A DNA stretch of 21,205 bases from Chromera velia. Taxonomy: Eukaryota; Sar; Chromeraceae. The notes beneath the pieces are model-generated. The model had not been told where the DNA came from and searched no databases. It saw only the letters and a list, made by a program, of their open reading frames with translations. The DNA is taken from assembly GCA_018398765.1 (NCBI GenBank), contig JAHBMJ010001288.1, positions 11,566 to 32,770 of the forward strand. Reading direction: 5' to 3'. Made by a program: the position numbers and the translations under genes. Below, piece by piece: positions 6,151 through 20,825 of the stretch (the stretch's first letter is position 1; each line of letters begins with the position of its first letter).

Positions 6151-6575
6151 TGGCGCGATGTGCGACGGGCACCCCGCCCTCGGGAGGACCCAACCTCTGG
6201 ATGGTCTTGCAGTCCTTAATTGGGCCATCCTTGGGCCCCGAAGCTTGCTACTGCATGGTTATACCTCTCGCTTGTATTAATATATATATGATGATTGAGG
6301 GTTTTTTCATGCATGCTTGTATCGATATATTTCTTGAGGGTTATAATTCGGGGTGTCTGGCGCTTTACTACTTCACCCCCCCGAAACGAGGAGGCTCAGA
6401 GCAGACGTATGTGAACAGTGTCACAGCTGACTCTGATCCTTTCGAGACTTCAGAGCCCACTTCGTGTGCGTCCGTATCATTGCTACGACTGTTGTTCACG
6501 TACAGAGTGCTGCCACATCCAAGAAGATGTTCTCCCACTGAAAAAACTGTCAAGCTCCTGCAGAAATAAGGGCAC
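6150..6575 (+). promoter_or_regulatory. Presumed promoter/5' UTR region of the RAP-like gene
   Basis: This is the sequence before the ATG at 6576. It contains a TATA-like run (TTAATATATATATG, 6278–6291), directly followed by TGATTGAGGGTTTTTT (6292–6307) and CATGCATGC (6308–6316). A transcription start near there would give a 5' UTR of roughly 250 nt. The start site itself cannot be read from sequence. An open frame at 6150–6569 shows no domain and is not called a gene. Confidence 0.3.
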
Positions 6576-9208
6576 ATGCAAGCTGGCCAGTTCGTGGGAG
6601 CTGCTGTTTTTTTACTCGTTCCCTTGCTCGTTGATGCCTTTGTCCATCTGCAACCCCGTCTCTGTTCACCGGGTTGTGTCTCTCTGCTCTCTGAAGTGCC
6701 GTCTCCGTCTCCGCTCCTTCCTCCTAGAGGCACATGCGCACTGGGTGTGAAAGCACAGCAGCAGCCCCGATCCATAGTGTCAGCTGCTGTCGCAGGAAAC
6801 AGTGGCAGCTTCAGGAAAGATGAACACGCGGGGGAAGGCCTAAAACACCCGAAGCGTCAGGCCGCTAAGACGAAACAAGTCGAGGAGGAGACGGCCGAAG
6901 AAGAAGAAAGGGAAGGTGAGGCAGAAGACCTCGAGTCCCTCTTCTCTCTTGAGGATCCCCCTTCTCCTATCCCACTTTCTGATCGCCCTACCGTTCCTTC
7001 TTCGCCTATCCCCTCTTTTCTCCGGGAAAAAGGAGGAGGAGAGGATTCTTCTGTCGGAGAGACACAGAAGGAGACGGCGACTGGACGCGTACTCGAGGCA
7101 CTCGTCTGGATGAACCGGGAGAGAGTCAGAGAGAGAGCTGGGGACCTAGATAGGGTCAGAAAGAAACAACGTAAAAAGAGGGAATGGAAGAGAAAGGTAG
7201 TTGCCGAGATTTTTCAAGATTCAAAGTTTTTGAAAGCGTTGCAGCAGGCGCGTGCGGAAGTACAGCAATGGGCGCTCTCTCTTGCTGCACGGGAGGGGGG
7301 CGCCCCCCCAGCTTCCTCTCTCTTCCCTTCATCTAGTTCGCTCGTAGAACTGCTCTCAGAGACCCTCCGTTTCTCTCAGGAGACTGTTCCATCCTTTGAC
7401 GAATCCTTTCGAGTGGGCGAACGCCTGTCTCAACTCTTGAGGCGTTCTTCTTCTCCTTCTTTGAAAGGGGTGCGTCCTTCTTCCCCAGAGGAGAGGGAGA
7501 AAGACAGACTTTTAGCCAAAAAAGAGAGAGAGACTTCAGAGGTGTGGGGTAGAAAGGAAGGTGCAGAGAAAGTGCTGCTCTTTCTGCCGTCTGATGAAAC
7601 AATCGAAGGAGAGAAAGAGAGCGGGAATACTACAGATAAACGGAATGCGGAGGAAGAAGACAAAAACCGCGCTGTTGAGGAAAGGGAAAAAAGAGAAGAG
7701 GGAATAGGAGAAAGTGTAGAAGAAGTTCTCACCTCATTTCTGCTATCCCTTCTGGAAGCAATCGGCCTTTTGGGGCCTTCCGGAGGCCCCGAGGTGGAGA
7801 TGGTTAAGGACGAGACCATCGAAGAACTCTCTGCGCGTCTCCTGACTCTCTTCGAGAGCGCATCCACAGCCCCGGACATGAATTCAACTTCTCCCAAACA
7901 CGCTCAGAACAGTTTGAAGAGACTTTTAAATCCTCTGGCTGAAGTCATTGGAGCGGCTGTGCTGTCACGAGTGAGAGGACGCTTGTCAAGATGGAACGAA
8001 ATTGGCCCGAGGCTTGCCGCCCACTTGCGAGATGGCACGAGTGTCCCTTCTCCCCTTCTGCCCTCTGGCTTCGGCCCTTTCGGGGCCGCTCTGTCTCTTC
8101 GCGTCCTGTGGGAGGGAGGCAGATTGGACCTGCCGGTGCAGCTCCTCTGCACTTTTGTGACACGTGCAGGCAAGGAGGCGTTGCGGTCTCTGACCGACAG
8201 ATTGCTGGACGCACTAGGGTCGGTTGTGTGGGGGAGTGATTGGGAGGAAGGGAGAAAGCGGGTAGAGGATGAGGCGTTTCGTGATTGGGGCCAGGAGGGG
8301 AATCAGAATGAGCCTCCCCTTCTGTCGTACAGTGAACTTGCAGAAGCAATGAGGATGTGCGTAATGCTGCAGGGACTGTTGTTGCGACTTTCGCAGAGAG
8401 GGGTAGAGACGTTCAATCGTTGCGAGAAAATGGTCAGGAGCTTTGAGGAGATTGTTGCAAACGGATTTTCGGCATTGTCCCAAAGCGCACGTCAATCTGG
8501 CAGCAGCAGAAAAAAGAAGGAGGAGAGGGGCTTGGCACACGCTGCCACCCAGGGCGACGACCAATTAGCTCTCCTAGTCGCTTCTCTTTTGTTTTCATTT
8601 TTAAAGATGAAATCCGAATTGCCGATACGTTTTTTGGACTCCCGAGCTGAGGTCTATCCTTTGCTTCGTTGGACGACGGGTGGAAGTTTTCGTCTCTTGT
8701 GCGTATCGGAGGATGTCCTCACGCGCACTTTGCCAATGCTTAATCCATCCGAATGCGCTGAGTACGTGAGCCGGCTGCTGTACGCCTACTGTCCGGGAGA
8801 GGGGCCACGGCTGGAAAGGCGCACGGTGGCCTCCTTACCCCCTGATCTGAAACGGAGAGTCGATCAAAGCTTGCAGAGACAAAGGGGGGAAGCTGGATTG
8901 AAGAAGAAAGGGGGAGAGGAGGAAGAAGAGGAGTCGGGGAGACGAATGGGAGATCTTCTCTCCGGATCCCTCCGTTTCGGGCCTCTCTTGGCTGATCGTT
9001 TGTTTGCTTCTTCTGAGGGTTTGTCTCCTTCTCCTTCTGTGTCTCTGAATGGGAGGGAGAGCTCCCAGCTGCTCTGTGGAATGAAATTCTTCAGAGAAAG
9101 CAGCAGACTGGAGGCAGGACTAACGGTGAGTGCGCGCAATAAGAAGATGTGACAAAAAGTAGGCAGGAAGGCGTGTGTGTGTGTGTGTGTCCACTGGCGC
9201 CTTTCCTC

Positions 9209-11504: not shown

Positions 11505-11844
11505 TTGCAGGATCTCAGTCTGACTGACGATTGGCAAGAGAACGAATGGGAGAGCTTCTTTGTCGCCTTGATGGTGCTTCGGAGTCCTCTGGTGCCTTCT
11601 GTCGCACTTCTCTCTAGATTTCTTTCCTTCCTTCAGGCCGTCTCCCCGTCTCCCAGGAGTCTCCAAACGGTGGTGGACTCTGAGCGTCGAGTTGTGCGAT
11701 TGATGCGGTCCGTTTGGGCCCTGCTCCTCTTTCTCTCCGGGAACTCCGGAAGGTCGGTTCGTTTCTTCGTTGATTCTTTTTCATGTGGACAGACACAGGG
11801 AGGAAGGGAAATCGGTCCATTTGTCCTCTGATTTGTTTTTTCTC

Positions 11845-11885
<41 letters not shown>

Positions 11886-11924
11886 ATCTCTGTGTCTGTC
11901 TGTCTGTCTGTCTTTCTCTCTATC

Positions 11925-11959
<35 letters not shown>

Positions 11960-14199
11960 CTGTCTGTCTGTCTGGTCTGTGCGATTCGACCATGAGTGAA
12001 CAGAAGGAAAGGAAGAATCAAAACGAACGTGTAATTTCTCTATCTATCTGTTGTGTTGTCTGCAGTTTCGGTCTTCAACGTCTCGATAGTCCCGATCCGG
12101 ATGATGCAGGGGGAGAAGGAGAAAGTGAAAGGGAAAGGGAGGCATTGAAGAGAAGCATCCTCGAGGCGGCTTCTCTATTTGTTCTTTCTAGATCATCATA
12201 TCATTTTGCGGGTCGGGGGGAGAAGGGAAGGGCCAAAAAGAGGGAAGGGACGGTTTCCTTGGAGGCAGAGGTTCTCTGGGCTGACATCCTTCGATTGTTC
12301 CAGAGGGCCCCAAGGGGGCAGAGAGCAAAGCCGTCAGCTTTGGACATTTATTCCTTCCTGGTGTCGGAGCCCCCTGACGGTTTGGGGCTGTATCTAGGCA
12401 GCAGGGGTACAGGTGGAGAAGCGGAGAGGACGAGAGGGGATCAGCCTGCGGGTGAGAAAGAAACAAGGGAAGCTTTCATGAGAGCTTTCGGTTTGTCTGT
12501 TGATGCATCATTGGCGGCAAGGAGTGAGTGCGGCAGAAGCATGGCCGGTTTTCCTCGCGCTTCTTTGTGCAGTCACTCCGTGACGCTCCTCTCCACTGAG
12601 CCTGACGCACGACAGCCACCAATTCAGTGGCGGTACCACCCGCTCACGAAATCCTTCTGCGAGCATGCACACAAATTTCGATGGAAGACTTTCTTAGAAC
12701 GATCGCTCCGCACGTCAGCAGTTGGTGGAGAAGAGGGACCCGGACACAAGGGGGGGGTAGGAAAAAAGTTTCCGCCAGTTGGGGGTCACGAGGGAGAGGC
12801 AACGTGGCAAGTAAACTTGATTCGGAGATTTGTGCGATTACGCTGGCTTCCCTCAGCGTTTTCGGAGATTGAATTCGAGCGTGTTGGGGAAAGGGGAAGG
12901 GGGGGTGCGAGTGAGCAGCCGGAAGGGCCTCGCCATCTGGTCCGAGTGGCCTTTGTGTTTGAGGACTGCCCCCCCGTGTTTGTCTCGTCGGTGCGTGATT
13001 GGGATTTGGACTTCTCCCCTCAGGGAGAGGGGGAAACCTCCGCAGATGGAGGAAGGACGGAAAGTAAGAAGGAGAAAGAGGAAGAGAAGAAGGAAAAGAA
13101 GAATGAAAGCTCAGTAGAGAAGAGGGAGGGGGGGGAGGTAGAGTGGAGCGTCTTTTCTGACCAAACTGCCTTCGCACTCAGGCAGAGAGGTAGGCATGTT
13201 GTCCGACTTTCGCACCGTCTCTGGACGCCCATGTCACCAGCAGAGCGGCGTGCTTGGATCGCCAATTCAATAGCCGATGTTCTACAGAGAGATGCTGCAG
13301 GGCAGCTCTGTGGCCCTGTTTTGAAAGACTTGCAAGCAGACGGGCATATGGGGGGGGGGCTGGAGGAGAGCTTGTTCATGACGCGAGGAAAGGGGGGAGG
13401 GGAAGGAGGGGTGGAAACATCTGCAGGAGGAGACCTTTGGGAGACGGTTGATTTAGAATCAGTCCCTTTGCGTTCTTTAGTATCTGCCTGTGTTGAATGG
13501 CAGCGAAGTTTGAGGCTTCAAGGGGAAATGGGAGGAGCCGCGTTTGCAGAGAAGAAGAGTGAGAGTGCAAGTGGGAAGGAGGTTAACTGGAGTGACAGGG
13601 AGAGCGTGTTCTCGGAACTTTTGCCTGAGTGGGATTGGGGACAGTTCCTCAAAGGGGCGCCAAAACGGTTTTTCGATATTTCCCCCCCCCCTTGGATCTC
13701 AAGCCGGGCTGAGACGGCCGTCTCGTTGAGGTTGCCCCCCCCCACGAAGGTTTCCAAGGAGGGTATGAGGCAGCACACCGAGGCAGAAAATGAAAAAAAT
13801 AGGTCGCTGAGCAGACCCCCGAGAAAGAAAACCTCTCGGGTATATGCGACGTCTCCTGCTTCCCCACTGACTACTCGAAAGAGTGCTTCAAAAGAATCTT
13901 TGAAAAAGGACAAAGGCCCTGAAAAGACTCGAAAAGCAGACGGGATTGAGAAGACAAACCAAAGAACCGAAGCAAAGCGAAAAAGTGTTTCAAAAGAATC
14001 CTTGAAAAAAAAGGAAGGCCTTAAAAAGATTCGAAAAGCAGACAGGGTTGAGAAGAGAAATGAAGGAAGGGAAGCCGACATTCGAAGTGAGGGATCATCA
14101 AAGAAAGAAGCAGAAAAAAATCAAGCGTTCCATGATCAAGGGGATCCACAGAAAAAACTAGCAGTGGCAGAACGTATTGCCGCCTTGTATGGCTGGTGA
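6576..14199 (+). CDS. Large plastid-targeted RAP-like domain protein (putative organellar RNA-binding factor)
   Basis: Five exons: 6576–9125, 9544–9817, 10436–10863, 11511–11752 and 12066–14199 (stop TGA), 5628 nt, 1875 residues. The start has a signal peptide (residues 1–21, hydrophobic AAVFLLVPLLVDA), then FVHLQPRL and a Ser/Pro-rich leader. A Phe just after the cleavage site is typical of bipartite plastid leaders in red-derived complex algae. Residues about 60–250 are charged and low-complexity. Several amphipathic helices follow (e.g. LSYSELAEAMRMCVMLQGLL), loosely like FASTK/OPR-type helical repeats. Residues about 1454–1570 resemble a divergent RAP domain: a hydrophobic strand VRVAFVFEDCPPVF, a charged insertion of about 45 residues, then FALRQRGRHVVRLSHRLW and an ERRAWIANSI helix. 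The tail is Lys-rich with a 34-residue duplication. RAP proteins usually act in organellar RNA processing. The gene model is firm apart from the exon 2 donor; the RAP call is tentative. Confidence 0.72.
9126..9543 (+). other. Intron 1 of RAP-like gene, with duplicated 49-nt TG-flanked unit
   Basis: Donor ACG|GTGAGT and acceptor CTGCAG|ACT keep phase 0. Inside, CCACTGGCGCCTTTCCTCCC occurs twice, at 9191–9210 and 9240–9259, each flanked by TG runs, so a 49-nt unit has duplicated. A (TC)n/(TGTC)n tract follows at about 9463–9521 as the polypyrimidine tract. Confidence 0.75.
9818..10435 (+). other. Intron 2 of RAP-like gene, with ambiguous donor
   Basis: The best-looking donor is TCA|GTAAGT at 9822. 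Joining it to the only good acceptor (TTCAG, ending 10435) shifts frame and stops at 10545–10547. Using GCCT|GTCAGT at 9818 keeps the frame and gives EACSSAAVLGG across the junction. The in-frame version makes the five exons sum to a multiple of three. The intron also holds CT-rich tracts (9831–9915) and AAACCCTC (10117–10124). Confidence 0.55.
10864..11510 (+). other. Intron 3 of RAP-like gene, purine repeat
   Basis: Donor CTG|GTGAGA and acceptor CTTGCAG|GAT keep phase 0. A GA-rich tract, then (GAGAGC)n-like repeats, cover about 10905–11012, and a TG run precedes the acceptor. The exon 3 frame stays open to 11313, so a retained intron would add about 150 residues, beginning with an Arg/Glu/Ser repeat. 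Confidence 0.7.
11753..12065 (+). other. Intron 4 of RAP-like gene, TGTC-rich
   Basis: Donor GGAAG|GTCGGT and acceptor GTCTGCAG|TTTC; the phase 2 junction rebuilds a Ser codon (AG|T). Tandem TGTC/TC/TATC repeats fill about 11840–11974. The next exon continues GNSG–S–FGLQRLDSP in frame. Confidence 0.7.
13882..14085 (+). repeat. 34-codon tandem duplication in C-terminal tail of RAP-like protein
   Basis: Two in-frame copies with a 102-nt period. Copy 1 starts SASKESLKKDKGPEKTRKAD (13882). Copy 2 starts SVSKESLKKKEGLKKIRKAD (13984). Both are Lys/Glu-rich and probably flexible. Confidence 0.85.
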
Positions 14200-15561: not shown

Positions 15562-18500
15562 TTAGGAGAAGGCTGGAGCGACCTTTAGCAGCCGCACAAT
15601 GTTCGTGTGGCCTTTGTCAGAGGCTACAATCAGGGCTGTCTTTCCCGTGCGCGTATCCTGCATGTCCACGTTGGCCTTCGCATCGACGAGCAGCCGCACA
15701 ATGTCCATGTGGCCGTCGAGAGAGGCTAAAATCAGGGCTGTCTTTCCGTTCTTGTCCTGCATGTCCACGTTGGCGTTTCCATCGACCAGCAGCTGTACAA
15801 TGTCCGTGTGGCCGTTTTCAGAGGCCAACATCATGGCTGTGCTTCCGTAACTGTCCTGCATGTCCATGTTGGCCTTTGCATCGACCAGCAGCTGCACAAT
15901 GTCCGTGTGGCCTTTGTCAGAGGCCCAAGTCAGGGCTGTCTTTCCCGTGTATGTGTCCTGCATGTCCACGTTGGCGTTTGCATCGACCAGCAGCCGCACA
16001 ATGCCCGTGCGGCCGTTTTCAGAGGCTAAAATCAGGGCTGTCTTTCCGTTCTTGTCCTGCATGTCCACGTTGGCGTTTCCATCGACCAGCAGCTGTACAA
16101 TGTCCGTGTGGCCGTTTTCAGAGGCCAACATCATGGCTGTGCTTCCGTAACTGTCCTGCATGTCCACGTTGGCCTTTGCATCGACCAGCAGCCGCACAAT
16201 GTCCGTGCGGCCGTTTTCAGAGGCTAAAATCAGGGCTGTCATTCCGCTCTTGTCCTGCATATCCACGTTGGCGTTTGCATCGACCAGCAGCCACACAATG
16301 TCCGTGTGGCCTTTGCAAGAGGCCAACATCAAGGCTGTCTCTCCGCTTTCCTCATCCCTCACATCGACATTCACAGTCTTGCTTTCGCGAATCAACCGAC
16401 CAATCACCTGCACGCACATGCAGTGCAGGAGTGTTCAGGATCCATAAGGTTGCGTGCAGTCGATTCCTTGTCAAAGATGACTGATCAATCAGGCAAAACA
16501 GGGGGACTGAGAGAGGAGATAGAGGAGAGAGAGGACAGAGAGGAAAGAGAGAGAAACGGCACTCTATGATTTCTCCTGAAGGCTCTCAGTCCAGCCATGC
16601 GGCCCCTTCCCGTGAGGACGAAAGTCGTTCCGCAGACAAAAAAAAGAATTAAATCGCCGTAAGCATACTGACCTCTGTCATTCCAGCCGAAGCCAGAAGG
16701 CGCAGGTTGGCATCAAGAGGACAGGGTCCCTCTGCTGGAAAGAGACCAGCCAGCCCTCTTTGCAGCCCCTCCATGTAGACCTTTTTCGAATCGTCATCGC
16801 CTCTAAGAGAGACGTCTAGAGCTTCGAAGCTGACAGCAGTGATGCTTCCCAGTTTGCCGAAAGCGCAAAGCAAGCGCTCAGAGCTGAGTGCCAGCTCTGA
16901 AGACTCTTCTAGAGAGGGAAAAACTCCAAAATTCCGACGAAGTGCTGCATCGTTGAACGGTGACCCCCTCAGGTCGAGCACTTGAAGTTGCAGTCTGGCT
17001 GCTAACGACGGGTCAGCAACAACATACTCGACTAGGGCAGCCAGTTGGAGAGCTGCTTGGGGGTCCATTTGCTCTCGAGCTTCTCGGGAGGAAGCCCAGG
17101 ATCCGTCTGCAAACACCCGCAGTTTGTGTATGGATCGGTGGAGAAAGTTTTTGTACAGCGCCTTCACACCTTCCGCATCGGCTTTTCCATTTGTGAACTT
17201 TTTCGTGTCAAGAGTCTCACCGAATCTCAGCGGAGTGGCGGGGATACGGAGGGAAGGTCTTTCCTGTTTGCTGTCGTCACTCAGAACCTGAGCGAGGGGC
17301 TTGAAGGCTGTGACTGCAGACTCGAACCAGCACCACCCCCTCTCGATGTACTTTGTGGGGTTTGCAGCGCTTTCAGGTACTGCTGTAGAGCGGATGACGT
17401 GTGTGTGCGGGCTGCTGTAGATGAGGTCCATTTTGCTCAGACCTTCTTTGAATAGCGCGTCTTGAGCATCTGTGCGTCTTCCCCCTGGGGGGTGTTGGAA
17501 GAGGGACAGGTAGTCCCAAAATACAAAGACAGTCACAGGAGAGCCTTCCTGGGCCCACCAGTGCTTCTCTAGTTGCTCGAGGACACTTCGGAGACGGAAG
17601 CCCTCTGGGTCGGGGTGCTCTTGCGACAGCCACGGATAACTGACTGCCAGAAGCTTGAAAGGAGCTCCAACAGGGTGTCGGAGGTCGGCTGCAAGTGTGC
17701 GAGCGGAAAAGGGCTCACAAACTACCCCAAGATCTTTCGCTGCTTCTGCTACCTTTTGACAGTAAGGCAACTTCGCACCTTTCTTCAGCAGGGATCTGAG
17801 GAAGTGCAAAGGCCAGAAGGCGACTGCTTCGTTATCAATCAGGGACCTCAAATCATTCCACTCCGACACCATTTCTGTCGACCAAAGATCAACCATTTGC
17901 TCTCCACTCTTCAGTCTCTCTACCACCTGCATCTTTCCCGCCTCTTCGGCAACTGCAAATGCTGTGTTTCCGCTAGCGTCCTTCAAAGAGGGGTCTGCTC
18001 CCCGTCTGAGCAGAAGCTCTACGAGAAGAATGTGCCCTCCTGCCGCAGCGCGAAAGAGGGGCGTCCGGCCCTGTGAGTCAGGAATATTCACGACAGTTTG
18101 GGTTGTGTTGCCCGGCCGTGCAAGGAGATACTCCACCATTCCGACATTTTCCTTCAGTATTGCAAGCATCAAGACGGAATTTCCTTCTTTGTCCTGCATG
18201 TCCACGTTGGCCTTTGCATCGACCAGCAGCCGCACAATGTCCGTGTGGCCGGCGAGAGAGGCCCACATCAGGGCTGTGTTTCAGCGCTCGTCCTACATGT
18301 CCACGTTGGCCTTCGCATCGACCAGCAGCCGCACGATGTCCATGTGGCCGTCGAGAGAGGCTAAAATCAGGGCTGTCTTTCCGTTCTTGTCTTGTATGTC
18401 CATGTTGGCCTTCGCATCGTCCAGCAGCCGCACAATGTCCGTGCGGCCGTTTTCAGAGGCCCAAATCAGGGCTGTCTTTTCCGTATTCTTGTCCTGCATG

Positions 18501-19268
18501 TCTACATTGGCCTTCGCATCGACCAACAACCGCACAATGTCCGTGTGACCGATGCAAGAGGCTAAACTCAGGGCTGTCTTTCCCGGGTACGTGTCCTGCA
18601 TGTCCACGTTGGCCTTCGCATCGACCAGCAGCCGCACAATGTCCGCGTGGCCGTTTTCAGAGGCTAAAATTGGGGCTGTCTTTTTCGCGTTCTTGTTCTG
18701 CATGTCCACGTTGGCGTTTGCATCGACCAGCAGCCGCACAATGTCCGTGTGGCGGTTTTCAGAGGCCCAAATCAGGGCTCTCTTTTCGTTCTTGTCCTGC
18801 ATGTCCACGTTGGCCTTTGCATCGACCAGCAGCCGCACAATGTCCGTGTGGCCATTTGCAGACGCTACAATCAGGGCTGTCCATCCATATTCGTCCTGCA
18901 TGTCCACGTTGGCCTTTGCATTGACCAGCAGCCGCACAATGTTCGTATGGCTGTAGAGAGAGGCTAAAATCAGGGCTGTCTTTCCGTTCTTGTCCTGCAT
19001 GTCCACGTTGGCCTTTGCATCGACCAGCAGCCGAACAATGTCCGTGTGGCCGTTTTCAGAGCCTAAAATCAGGGCTGTCATTCCGTTCTCGTCCTGCCAG
19101 TCCAAGTCGAGCTTGGCCCTTCCGCCCTCAATGATGTGCCTCACCTTCAGGAGATCCCCCTTTCTTGAGGCGTCTTTGGGGGCCTGTGGGCTAGCCTGTG
19201 GGTCTGTCTCCTCTGTCTCCATTTCTTTTTGTTCCCGAGGGAAGGATGCTGGACGGGAACCCTTGACG
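15562..19268 (-). CDS. Ankyrin array – HET/TIR-like domain – ankyrin array protein (core of gene; two in-frame stops)
   Basis: Read right to left, exon 19268–16673 is joined to 16407–15562 by an intron with matching phase 0. A conservative start is ATG 19222 (AGAAATGG context). Numbered from it: residues 1–43 are a short polar leader; about 36–442 hold about eleven ankyrin repeats; about 523–643 hold a HET/TIR-like domain (LLAVSYPW, HPDP, VFVFWDYLSLFQ, IERGWCWFE); about 747–755 a single LRR-like LQVLDLRGS; then from 851 eight more ankyrin repeats to stop TAA 15564–15562. HET domains belong to fungal allorecognition and are thought related to TIR; ankyrin repeats bind partners, so a cytosolic recognition or signalling role is inferred, not shown. 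Oddities: TAG at 18295–18293 and TGA at 18283–18281 interrupt one repeat while the frame holds on both sides. It may be a pseudogene, or that repeat may be spliced out. Confidence 0.72.
15583..16407 (-). repeat. Ankyrin repeat array 2 (eight repeats, 99/102-nt period)
   Basis: Eight consecutive 33- or 34-residue units of the form DKNGKTALILASENGHTDIV…LLVDANANVDMQ. The first is more divergent (VNVDVRDEESGETALMLAS). The last breaks off after HTNIVRLL. A three-repeat block is duplicated with a 300-nt offset: 15721–15866 and 16021–16166 are identical over 146 nt. Confidence 0.93.
16408..16672 (-). other. Intron joining the HET-like exon to ankyrin array 2
   Basis: Donor ACAGAG|GTCAGT (exon ends 16673) and acceptor GTGCGTGCAG (exon resumes 16407), both phase 0, 265 nt. 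The join makes LRLLASAGMTE–VIGRLIRESKTVNVDV, which reads as one ankyrin-type helix pair leading into array 2. Without splicing the upstream frame would stop at 16651–16649, and array 2 would need its own weak ATG at 16419. This makes one gene from what otherwise looks like two. Confidence 0.65.
17294..17656 (-). other. HET/TIR-like domain
   Basis: About 120 residues. Strand 1 is LLAVSYPWLSQEHPDPEG (compare the HET opening [YV]xAxSYxWG). A helix follows, then strand TVFVFWDYLSLFQ (compare WIDxLCIxQ), RRTDAQDALFKEGLSKMDLIY (compare the E/Q…M..IY helix), strand HTHVIRST, and YIERGWCWFE (compare RGWxxQE). The order and spacing fit a HET-like fold. The residues that would decide catalytic activity cannot be assigned from sequence alone. 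Confidence 0.55.
17897..19117 (-). repeat. Ankyrin repeat array 1 (about eleven repeats)
   Basis: Nine near-identical repeats (TALI.AS.NGHTDIVRLLVDAKANVDMQ), then more divergent ones (KEGNSVLMLAI; DSQGRTPLFRAAAGGHILLVELLLRRGADPSLK; DASGNTAFAVAEEAG). The period is 99 nt, or 102 nt in three repeats that each gained one codon, so the frame is kept. The divergent repeats lie next to the HET-like domain and the homogeneous ones toward the N terminus. Confidence 0.93.
18281..18295 (-). other. Two premature in-frame stop codons in an ankyrin repeat
   Basis: The usual GTGGACATGCAGGAC reads GTGGACATG-TAG-GAC here (CAG to TAG at 18295–18293). Three codons later the usual GGA is TGA (18283–18281). Flanking repeats are intact and in the same frame. 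Confidence 0.9.
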
Positions 19269-19493
19269 CTGCAGCAGTCATGCAAAACTGCATGGAGGCA
19301 AGAAGATGTTTCGAGTAGGTCGATACCCGTTGTCATGAAGACAATTATTACCTTGAAGCAAAAGAAATGAGACAGAAGACACATGGCCTGACGCGGAACC
19401 TTCAAGATTGCAGGGGGGAAATCTAAGTGATAAAACGCTTGGGACAATGCAACTCGGCATGGACGTTCCATGGGACGGTCGATCGACAAGCTT

Positions 19494-19522
19494 GGTAGGT
19501 AGGTAGGTAGGTAGGTAGGTAG
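19494..19522. repeat. (GTAG)n microsatellite
   Basis: About seven tandem GGTA units, upstream of ankyrin array 1 and within the proposed first intron of that gene. Confidence 0.92.
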
Positions 19523-20061
19523 ATTGACTGAATTGCATGAAAGGGAGGAACTGCAGGATCACTGACCGCTGATTCGAGTCAGCTTGTGTCGTGTGTGAAG
19601 TTGACGTCCTCCCTTCCCCTCCTCCTCCATTTCCTCCTCCGACTTTCTGCCTATTCCTCCCGGTCCCGGTCCCCGTTCATAACATCCCCCCTCCCCATCC
19701 CCTCCCCTCTCGAGCATTTTCGACAATTCTGCAGAGATGCACGAATACAGGCAGGACACGGCAATGACCGGCTACAAGCTGTCTACGCAAAGTCGGTTCA
19801 GGTGCACAAATGGAGACAGAAAAGCCTGTACACGCGTGAAGGGATACATACATCAATACACAACCCCACGACTGCCCACGACAGCAATGCATTCGTTCGG
19901 AATTTTCGGCGTGACACCTTTAGAATGCACCCGCAGTCTTGAATTAACTGAGCGTGGCAACTCGTGTCAGACTGCGAGCGGCATGATTGCCAGTAGCGCG
20001 AGTCAAATGGACTGGTCCACACGTACACACCAAAAAGGAGTCATGCGTGCAGGAAGGTTAC

Positions 20062-20201
20062 CTGACAAGAGCAATTGCAGGTGTCTGACCTGTCGGCGGC
20101 GGTCTGGTGTTGCGAAACAGAACTCCAGCCCCCCGCAGCGGAGCCCTCTCCTTCTTGCGCTTCTCGAGAATTGCAACGACGTCAGCAAAGTACTCCTCCA
20201 T
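20062..20201 (-). CDS. Possible first coding exon of the ankyrin/HET-like gene
   Basis: ATG at 20201–20199 in a good context (CAAAAATGG) opens MEEYFADVVAILEKRKKER and runs 46 codons plus two bases to a strong donor TGTCAG|GTAACC (intron begins 20061). The acceptor GACTGCTGCAG (ending 19269) takes the same phase and yields a Ser codon, then VKGSRPASFPREQKEMETEE into the ankyrin exon. Phase agreement and the helix-like, charged start support it. An alternative inner donor (ACAG|GTCAGA, 20091) could join a Gly/Glu-rich exon around 19576–19743, and then an acceptor at about 19291, also in phase. If neither is used, translation starts at 19222. Confidence 0.5.
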
Positions 20202-20825
20202 TTTTGAGACAGATCGATGAATAAATCAATATGAGGTTCCTGCAAGCGGGAAGAAAGGCGCAACAATTATATAAGAATGCCTCGTGAAAAAATCTTCTGC
20301 TACAAAACCGGAAATTCAAATTATAGAATCTGCGCTTGTGTGGTGTGTGCTCGCATCGTGTGTATAGGATCACACGCATGCCGATACACTTCCTCTCAAG
20401 GTCAGAGCAATGGACGGCCTGTTTATAAAGAGTGCTTGCTGTACTACGAAGGTCAGACAAACTCGAAAGAATACCGATTGACGTTTTGAACCGGCTTTGA
20501 CTTTCATTGAACGTACCTGTACCCTGCCTTTCCCTCCAGTGGAAGGTTGAAGGCAGTCTGCGAAGGTAAGAGTGACGGTTTTTTGGCACTCGCAGGTGAA
20601 CACAGACAGATGCTGCGCAGATGCCAGTCTGACAGAATGCGGCTCCACAATGCTCCAAGGTTTGGCAAGGCGGAGCAGCCATGCAGACAGAAAGCGTTTG
20701 CACCTCTCAAGCAGAAGGGGGAAGCACAGGTCGAAAAAGGCGAATACAACAGGTTTTCTGCACTAGCAAACGAACACAGACAGAACAAATTGAAACGATG
20801 ATTGAGGGTTTTGTTGAAACTGTTG

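Follow-up and report, generated by a model that had tools for sequence, protein, structure and literature searches.

A damaged member of an algal gene family in which hypervariable ankyrin arrays flank a HET-like core

Little is known, to our knowledge, of the ways in which unicellular alveolate algae detect parasites, viruses or unlike partners. The window analysed here, a stretch of 21,205 nucleotides of an algal genome (G000:C1286:11566-32770) whose end is also the end of its contig, carries on its minus strand a split gene in which two arrays of ankyrin repeats enclose a core with remote similarity to HET domains. An earlier note on this DNA had described it as a gene, fused across an intron, for a candidate intracellular recognition receptor in an alga. 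The algal source is borne out by 58 light-harvesting-family matches in the genome, and the architecture is real, but two in-frame stops in exon 2 had been overlooked. The gene belongs to a large family in the same genome, and the variability of its repeats, concentrated at a few positions, suggests that intact members take part in recognition.

The gene consists of three exons. Exon 1 (20090..20201, minus strand; 112 bases, phase 1) starts with the ATG at 20201, which is one end of the span given in the earlier note, and joins exon 2 in frame; its donor, ACAG/GTCAGACACC, is the same in the six aligned copies of seven (L035 was left out of the alignment). An upstream exon is needed because in one paralogue, L004, no methionine lies between the repeats and the nearest stop ahead of them in the frame. 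The sequence METEETD was considered as an alternative start and rejected, its methionine being absent in paralogues and exon 1 being conserved. The position of intron 1 (19288..20089, minus strand) was deduced from three features: the donor shared by the copies, an acceptor CAG, and a frame that continues from exon 1 into exon 2. Exon 2 (16673..19287, minus strand) encodes ankyrin array 1 (17945..19093), in which near-identical units are followed by more divergent ankyrin repeats adjoining the core, and then the core region of 424 residues. Within the latter lies the HET-like domain (17300..17671), with the blocks AVSYPW, FWD(x5)Q, MDLIY and RGWCWFE, so that the motifs previously quoted for this gene do fall in non-ankyrin sequence; a weak, degenerate tail resembling leucine-rich repeats (LRR) follows at 16744..16993, its limits being estimates. 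Intron 2 (16408..16672, minus strand; 265 bases, phase 0) had been proposed from the window alone, and its borders recur in paralogues while the frame joins across it. Compared by eye in 19 loci, the donor GT is present in all 15 whose compared stretch covers its place, and the acceptor GCAG occupies the corresponding site in 17 (L012 is not reached and L020 is unclear). Alignments by blastn of the window copy with L007-L011 end where exon 2 ends, indicating that the bodies of intron 2 have diverged while its borders were kept. Exon 3 (15562..16407, minus strand) encodes ankyrin array 2 in 99-base units and closes with the stop codon.

The units of both arrays are near-identical ankyrin repeats of about 33 residues, and ankyrin families account for the strong Pfam matches of the gene: the Ank model scores 189.5 bits (18296-19222) and 76.2 bits (16652-18280) on the two pieces of exon 2 and 213.9 bits on array 2, so that highly similar repeats do flank the core on both sides, as had been claimed. 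Matches to HEM4 (30.6 bits) and VWA_3_C (29.3 bits) in array 2 also exceed the Pfam cut-offs and are taken to be spurious products of repetitive sequence. No NACHT or NB-ARC domain is among the Pfam matches at E<=1 for the three pieces of the gene. The two stops, a TAG (18293..18295, minus strand) and a TGA (18281..18283, minus strand), are codons 369 and 373 of the joined exons 1 and 2 and fall within a single repeat of array 1; paralogues that are open there, such as L005, have sense codons at these sites. As assembled, the frame of the window copy is not open. A short GT-AG intron excising both stops was sought and rejected, as the GT..ACACAG candidates found by eye around them (23, 31, 49 and 61 bases) are not multiples of three; a longer one may exist. 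The probable explanation is that the window copy is a pseudogene or has been misassembled; alternatively, if the stops are real and the gene is expressed, it would yield a truncated protein of ankyrin repeats only.

A single protein search with the core returned at least 85 matches at no fewer than 71 separate places in the same genome. The window copy and L002-L020 make up group 1, and the order of the arrays is kept in most of these 20 loci: an ankyrin model detects array 1 ahead of the core in 18 loci and array 2 behind it in 19, L019 having a single unit there and L009 ending with its contig. In group 2 (L021-L028) at least one ankyrin unit precedes the core in 8 of 8 loci, and no unit was found after it within the stretches examined. 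A core tree of 31 rows places all 15 group-1 rows in one clade (support 100/99); five broken group-1 loci (L002, L005, L011, L017 and L018) were excluded from this tree and from the group profile A1. All matches to array 2 of at least 55% identity, among the matches listed, lie on group-1 contigs. Each of ten more distant places (L036-L045) contains a core match; Pfam scans of nine of them found ankyrin in L041 only and LRR matches below cut-off in L041, L042 and L043, in stretches so short that further exons may lie outside them. The arrayed genes thus sit within a wider HET-like family whose distant core copies mostly have no detected ankyrin. The evidence for an LRR-like tail comes from the family: LRR_6 is matched in 4 of 23 core members, the window copy not being one of them, and of the 34 PDB chains that the A1 profile meets at E<=10 the best are LRR proteins aligned with the tail (lowest E 2.1e-5). 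A second profile, A2, matched two chains at chance level. A sequence search of the PDB with the core gave no match, and no relatives of the core were found in the viral contigs, the prokaryote genomes or the HET-rich metagenome-assembled genome (MAG) that were searched. Purifying selection acts on the core: across eight genes, of which L002 and L005 carry stops in it, its ratio of non-synonymous to synonymous divergence (dN/dS) is 0.18-0.48 in all 28 pairs.

For comparison of the core with HET, HET domains were gathered by a motif pattern, which yielded 15 loci; a single MAG, labelled Deltaproteobacteria, accounts for 14. Three of these domains were scanned and score 98-120 bits against PF06985, the curated cut-off being 22.5 bits. 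The window core follows the HET order of blocks, SYxW, then D-x5-Q with M..IY, then RxWxxxE, collinearly, and the intervals D-x5-Q and W-x3-E have the same length in both; it lacks the glycine of SYxWG and the CIN of CINQ. In alignment A4 with nine HET domains, 12 invariant columns are shared with the core. None of 200 shuffles of the core reaches this number (maximum 11, mean 5.3), nor does any of 171 non-HET decoys (maximum 9, mean 5.2). The decoys are segments without a hit to the HET hidden Markov model (HMM) and replaced a first set of 55 (mean 6.2, maximum 20), which probably held HET domains lacking the CINQ motif. When 18 family rows were aligned singly with HET, they shared 8-13 columns. 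Profile comparison by hhalign of 41 family rows (taken from A1 and A2, with loci shared between them) with 27 HET domains gave a score of 23.9, against 11.8 +/- 2.2 for permutations (maximum 19.8; 0 of 300 reach 23.9) and 14.7 for the reversed profile. A preceding pair of comparisons, from which L051, L052 and L059, three of the 12 HET rows, were excluded as they were from A4, was mixed: A2 (22.16) beat 300 of 300 permutations with the reversed HET profile near it (20.06), and the score of A1 was reached by 6 of 300. These similarities support the core as a remote relative of HET, a HET-like domain outside the Pfam HET model. The first half of the earlier designation HET/TIR-like is supported in this remote sense. 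Its second half rests only on the published link between HET and TIR: fungal HET domains have been characterised both as sufficient for cell death and as distantly related to TIR (PMC10197012, PMC4986451), and their homologues outside fungi include algae (PMC4986451). Pfam TIR models are unmatched by the core members and their consensus, whereas the genome's own TIR domain passes PF01582; no TIR relatives were found in plasmids. The MAG that supplied most HET sequences, NYXK01 'Deltaproteobacteria CPC1' (L051-L055, L057-L065), itself contains 41 HET-domain matches, which are probably fungal contamination.

Variation within the arrays is strongly dependent on position. Among 316 ankyrin domain rows, the 165 with at most three gaps were kept, 160 from group 1 and 5 from group 2, and in the group-1 units entropy peaks at positions 2, 3, 5, 9, 10, 13 and 14. 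Positions 2, 3, 5, 13 and 14 are, we take it, those randomised as the binding surface in libraries of designed ankyrin repeat proteins (DARPins), and the term surface is used here for positions assigned from that design rather than from a structure of these proteins. The seven closest genes provide 73 units, and in these the ranking of the 33 positions by variability is headed by 13, 3, 5, 14 and 2, exactly the DARPin set, within a near-identical scaffold; pairs of these units differ in residue at 71.1% of six surface positions (the five and position 10) and at 12.6% of the others. The proportion of non-synonymous differences (pN) at the six positions is 2.9 times the synonymous proportion (pS) of the whole unit (95% gene bootstrap 2.4-3.6), the corresponding value for the scaffold being 0.43. 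In 171 full-length unit pairs with at most two scaffold differences, pairs with gaps at surface codons excluded, differences affect 677 of 1026 surface codons, with two or three bases changed in 381, as against 264 of 4565 scaffold codons. A likely binding surface that changes this fast suggests that the family recognises varied partners.

We lean, with some reserve, towards the reading that the window holds a damaged member of a family in which diversifying arrays bind partners and the core between them responds. In intact members, it is most likely the concave face of both arrays that would contact partner molecules, and selection would diversify the residues there. Binding inside the cell would switch on the constrained HET-like core, and the switched core may set off a response, for example regulated cell death, by analogy with fungal HET domains in non-self recognition. 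A recognition role of the family is likely, and the proposal of a receptor made in the earlier note gains from the position-specific hypervariability and from the size of the family, the function itself being argued from these features.

Several observations weigh against this reading, and the competing explanations draw on them. The surface positions might vary through lack of constraint, with gene conversion and purifying selection keeping the scaffold uniform, in ordinary ankyrin adaptors rather than receptors under diversifying selection. Surface positions vary in ankyrin proteins generally. Inside the surface codons of the close set, dN/dS is 1.05 at the five positions and 0.66 once position 10 is included; gene by gene, the value for the five positions lies between 0.38 and 3.27 in 10 genes and could not be computed in two. 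Synonymous difference among pairs with the same residue is itself higher at the surface, 18.7% against 8.4% (0.187 vs 0.084), although the surface synonymous count stems partly from multi-base replacements and offers no clean neutral yardstick. Units of one gene resemble each other only a little more than they resemble units of other genes (within-gene distance 0.0659 vs 0.0712 when shuffled, 0 of 1000 as low), and older genes, L010-L014 for example, show no such homogenisation. We nevertheless hold loss of constraint to be unlikely, since freedom from constraint by itself should give a pN no higher than the neighbouring pS, while surface pN is 14.6-fold scaffold pS in the 256 closest pairs, and the contrast between surface and scaffold codons in the 171 near-identical pairs points the same way. 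Replacement of whole surface codons by several bases beside identical scaffold could also recall codon-targeted mutagenesis of the kind performed by a diversity-generating retroelement. The adenine-only form of such a mechanism is ruled out by changes beyond adenines, for instance TTA/TGG/GGG at position 10 and GAA/TTC/CTC at position 13, and codon-targeted rewriting as a whole appears very improbable.

A further explanation concerns the state of the loci: the window locus and much of group 1 could be decaying duplicates or assembly artefacts, with repeat order, unit number and stops produced by misassembly. Besides the two stops of the window copy, exon 2 carries stops or frame breaks in 10 of the 20 group-1 loci, the window copy included, and exon 3 is broken in L006; some of the exon 2 breaks may be unrecognised introns. 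The published assembly of Chromera velia began with velvet at a k-mer of 71 (PMC4501334), and if the present genome is that assembly, near-identical 99-base repeats, and the stops within them, could be misassembled. Decay or artefact on this scale is nonetheless rather doubtful, as exon 2 is open in the other ten loci (L003, L004, L006, L008, L009, L012, L013, L014, L015 and L019), the dN/dS of the core is low and the intron borders are conserved. As for the core, its HET-like motifs might have arisen by convergence in an alpha/beta domain unrelated to HET. Pfam HET and TIR are unmatched at E<=10 in 23 core members, 9 distant members and two consensus sequences, and Pfam HET is unmatched at E<=1 in a search of the genome whose controls also gave no signal. 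The hhalign probability is 11% for the 41-row profile and 0.9-6% for those before it (2.6% and 0.9%, then 6.0% and 3.0% for the later pair). One of the 12 shared columns, the W two residues before D, which is F here, is matched only by way of a gap, and 8 of the 18 family rows share only 8-9 columns, no more than the best decoy. AlphaFold, which the earlier note had suggested for judging a HET or TIR fold, gave core models with a mean predicted local distance difference test (pLDDT) of 36.6 for the core alone and 49.4 with nine HET rows, the latter not independent, too poor to judge the fold. The collinear blocks, their equal spacing and a number of shared columns that neither shuffles nor decoys reach make convergence quite improbable.

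The receptor reading has parallels in known systems. In the fungal HNWD/NWD family (Podospora het-e, het-d and het-r), a HET effector is likewise joined to near-identical repeats, diversifying selection acts at a few codon positions of the repeat binding surface, and broken copies occur (PMC1805685). These fungal proteins have a NACHT domain and WD repeats, whereas the window gene has no detected nucleotide-binding domain, ankyrin on both sides and a core that Pfam HET does not match. In fungal ankyrin NOD-like receptors (NLRs), the repeats are highly conserved internally and the sites of positive selection lie mainly on the concave side (Dyrka et al. 2014, PMC4986451), and positive selection at binding-face positions has been described for fungal ankyrin, TPR and WD repeats alike (PMC4986451, PMC1805685). 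The present arrays share with them the internal conservation and the variability at binding-face positions; the fungal proteins carry NACHT or NB-ARC and differ in kingdom and domain order. The brown-algal LRR-ROCO proteins are candidates for immune receptors, and diversifying selection acts on the concave side of their repeats (PMC11378527). They resemble the family described here in being algal and variable on that side, but they encode one repeat per exon, undergo exon shuffling and have a ROC-COR core, while here whole arrays occupy single exons beside a HET-like core. Within the same genome, the gene at L029 (G000:C643) also pairs a TIR-family domain with ankyrin repeats; its domain, unlike the core of the window gene, is a genuine Pfam TIR and the sole PF01582 match in the genome. 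That domain (L029:1309-1776) scores 31.0 bits, with the ankyrin repeats in a neighbouring frame, and is a TIR-ankyrin candidate receptor in its own right. The genome as a whole contains 7 NB-ARC and 1 NACHT matches and, beside the PF01582 match, two sub-threshold PF13676 matches, fewer than the members of the HET-like-core family.

In the library searched, beyond which the literature was not searched, no report of an ankyrin-HET-like-ankyrin family was found, and the main text of the C. velia genome paper contains neither 'ankyrin' nor 'heterokaryon' (PMC4501334). It is conceivable, and we put it forward tentatively, that an alveolate alga possesses its own counterpart of the fungal hypervariable HET receptors, one without a nucleotide-binding switch, in which single surface codons are replaced while the adjoining DNA stays identical. 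If so, the fungal strategy of placing diversifying repeats on a TIR/HET-type effector would exist in a distant lineage, in a form that lacks the customary nucleotide-binding module. In any case, this multi-gene family, in which a HET-like core is combined with hypervariability focused on a surface, supplies named genes and codon positions to test.

The homology between copies has a common beginning and unlike ends. Upstream it starts at 20776..20797 of the window in five of the six copies compared, L035 beginning about 80-100 bases further in; downstream, L003, L005/L049 and L017 end at most about 110 bases apart, and the ends of L002, L004 and L006 come sooner. Scans of the window for Rfam families and tRNAs gave no result. 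On the plus strand, the window contains two long frames, 6570-9152 (860 codons) and 11704-14199 (831 codons), and in neither does a Pfam family pass its cut-off. The second frame closes in a stretch that may resemble a RAP domain, and a 102-base tandem duplication (13876-14060) lies near its end.

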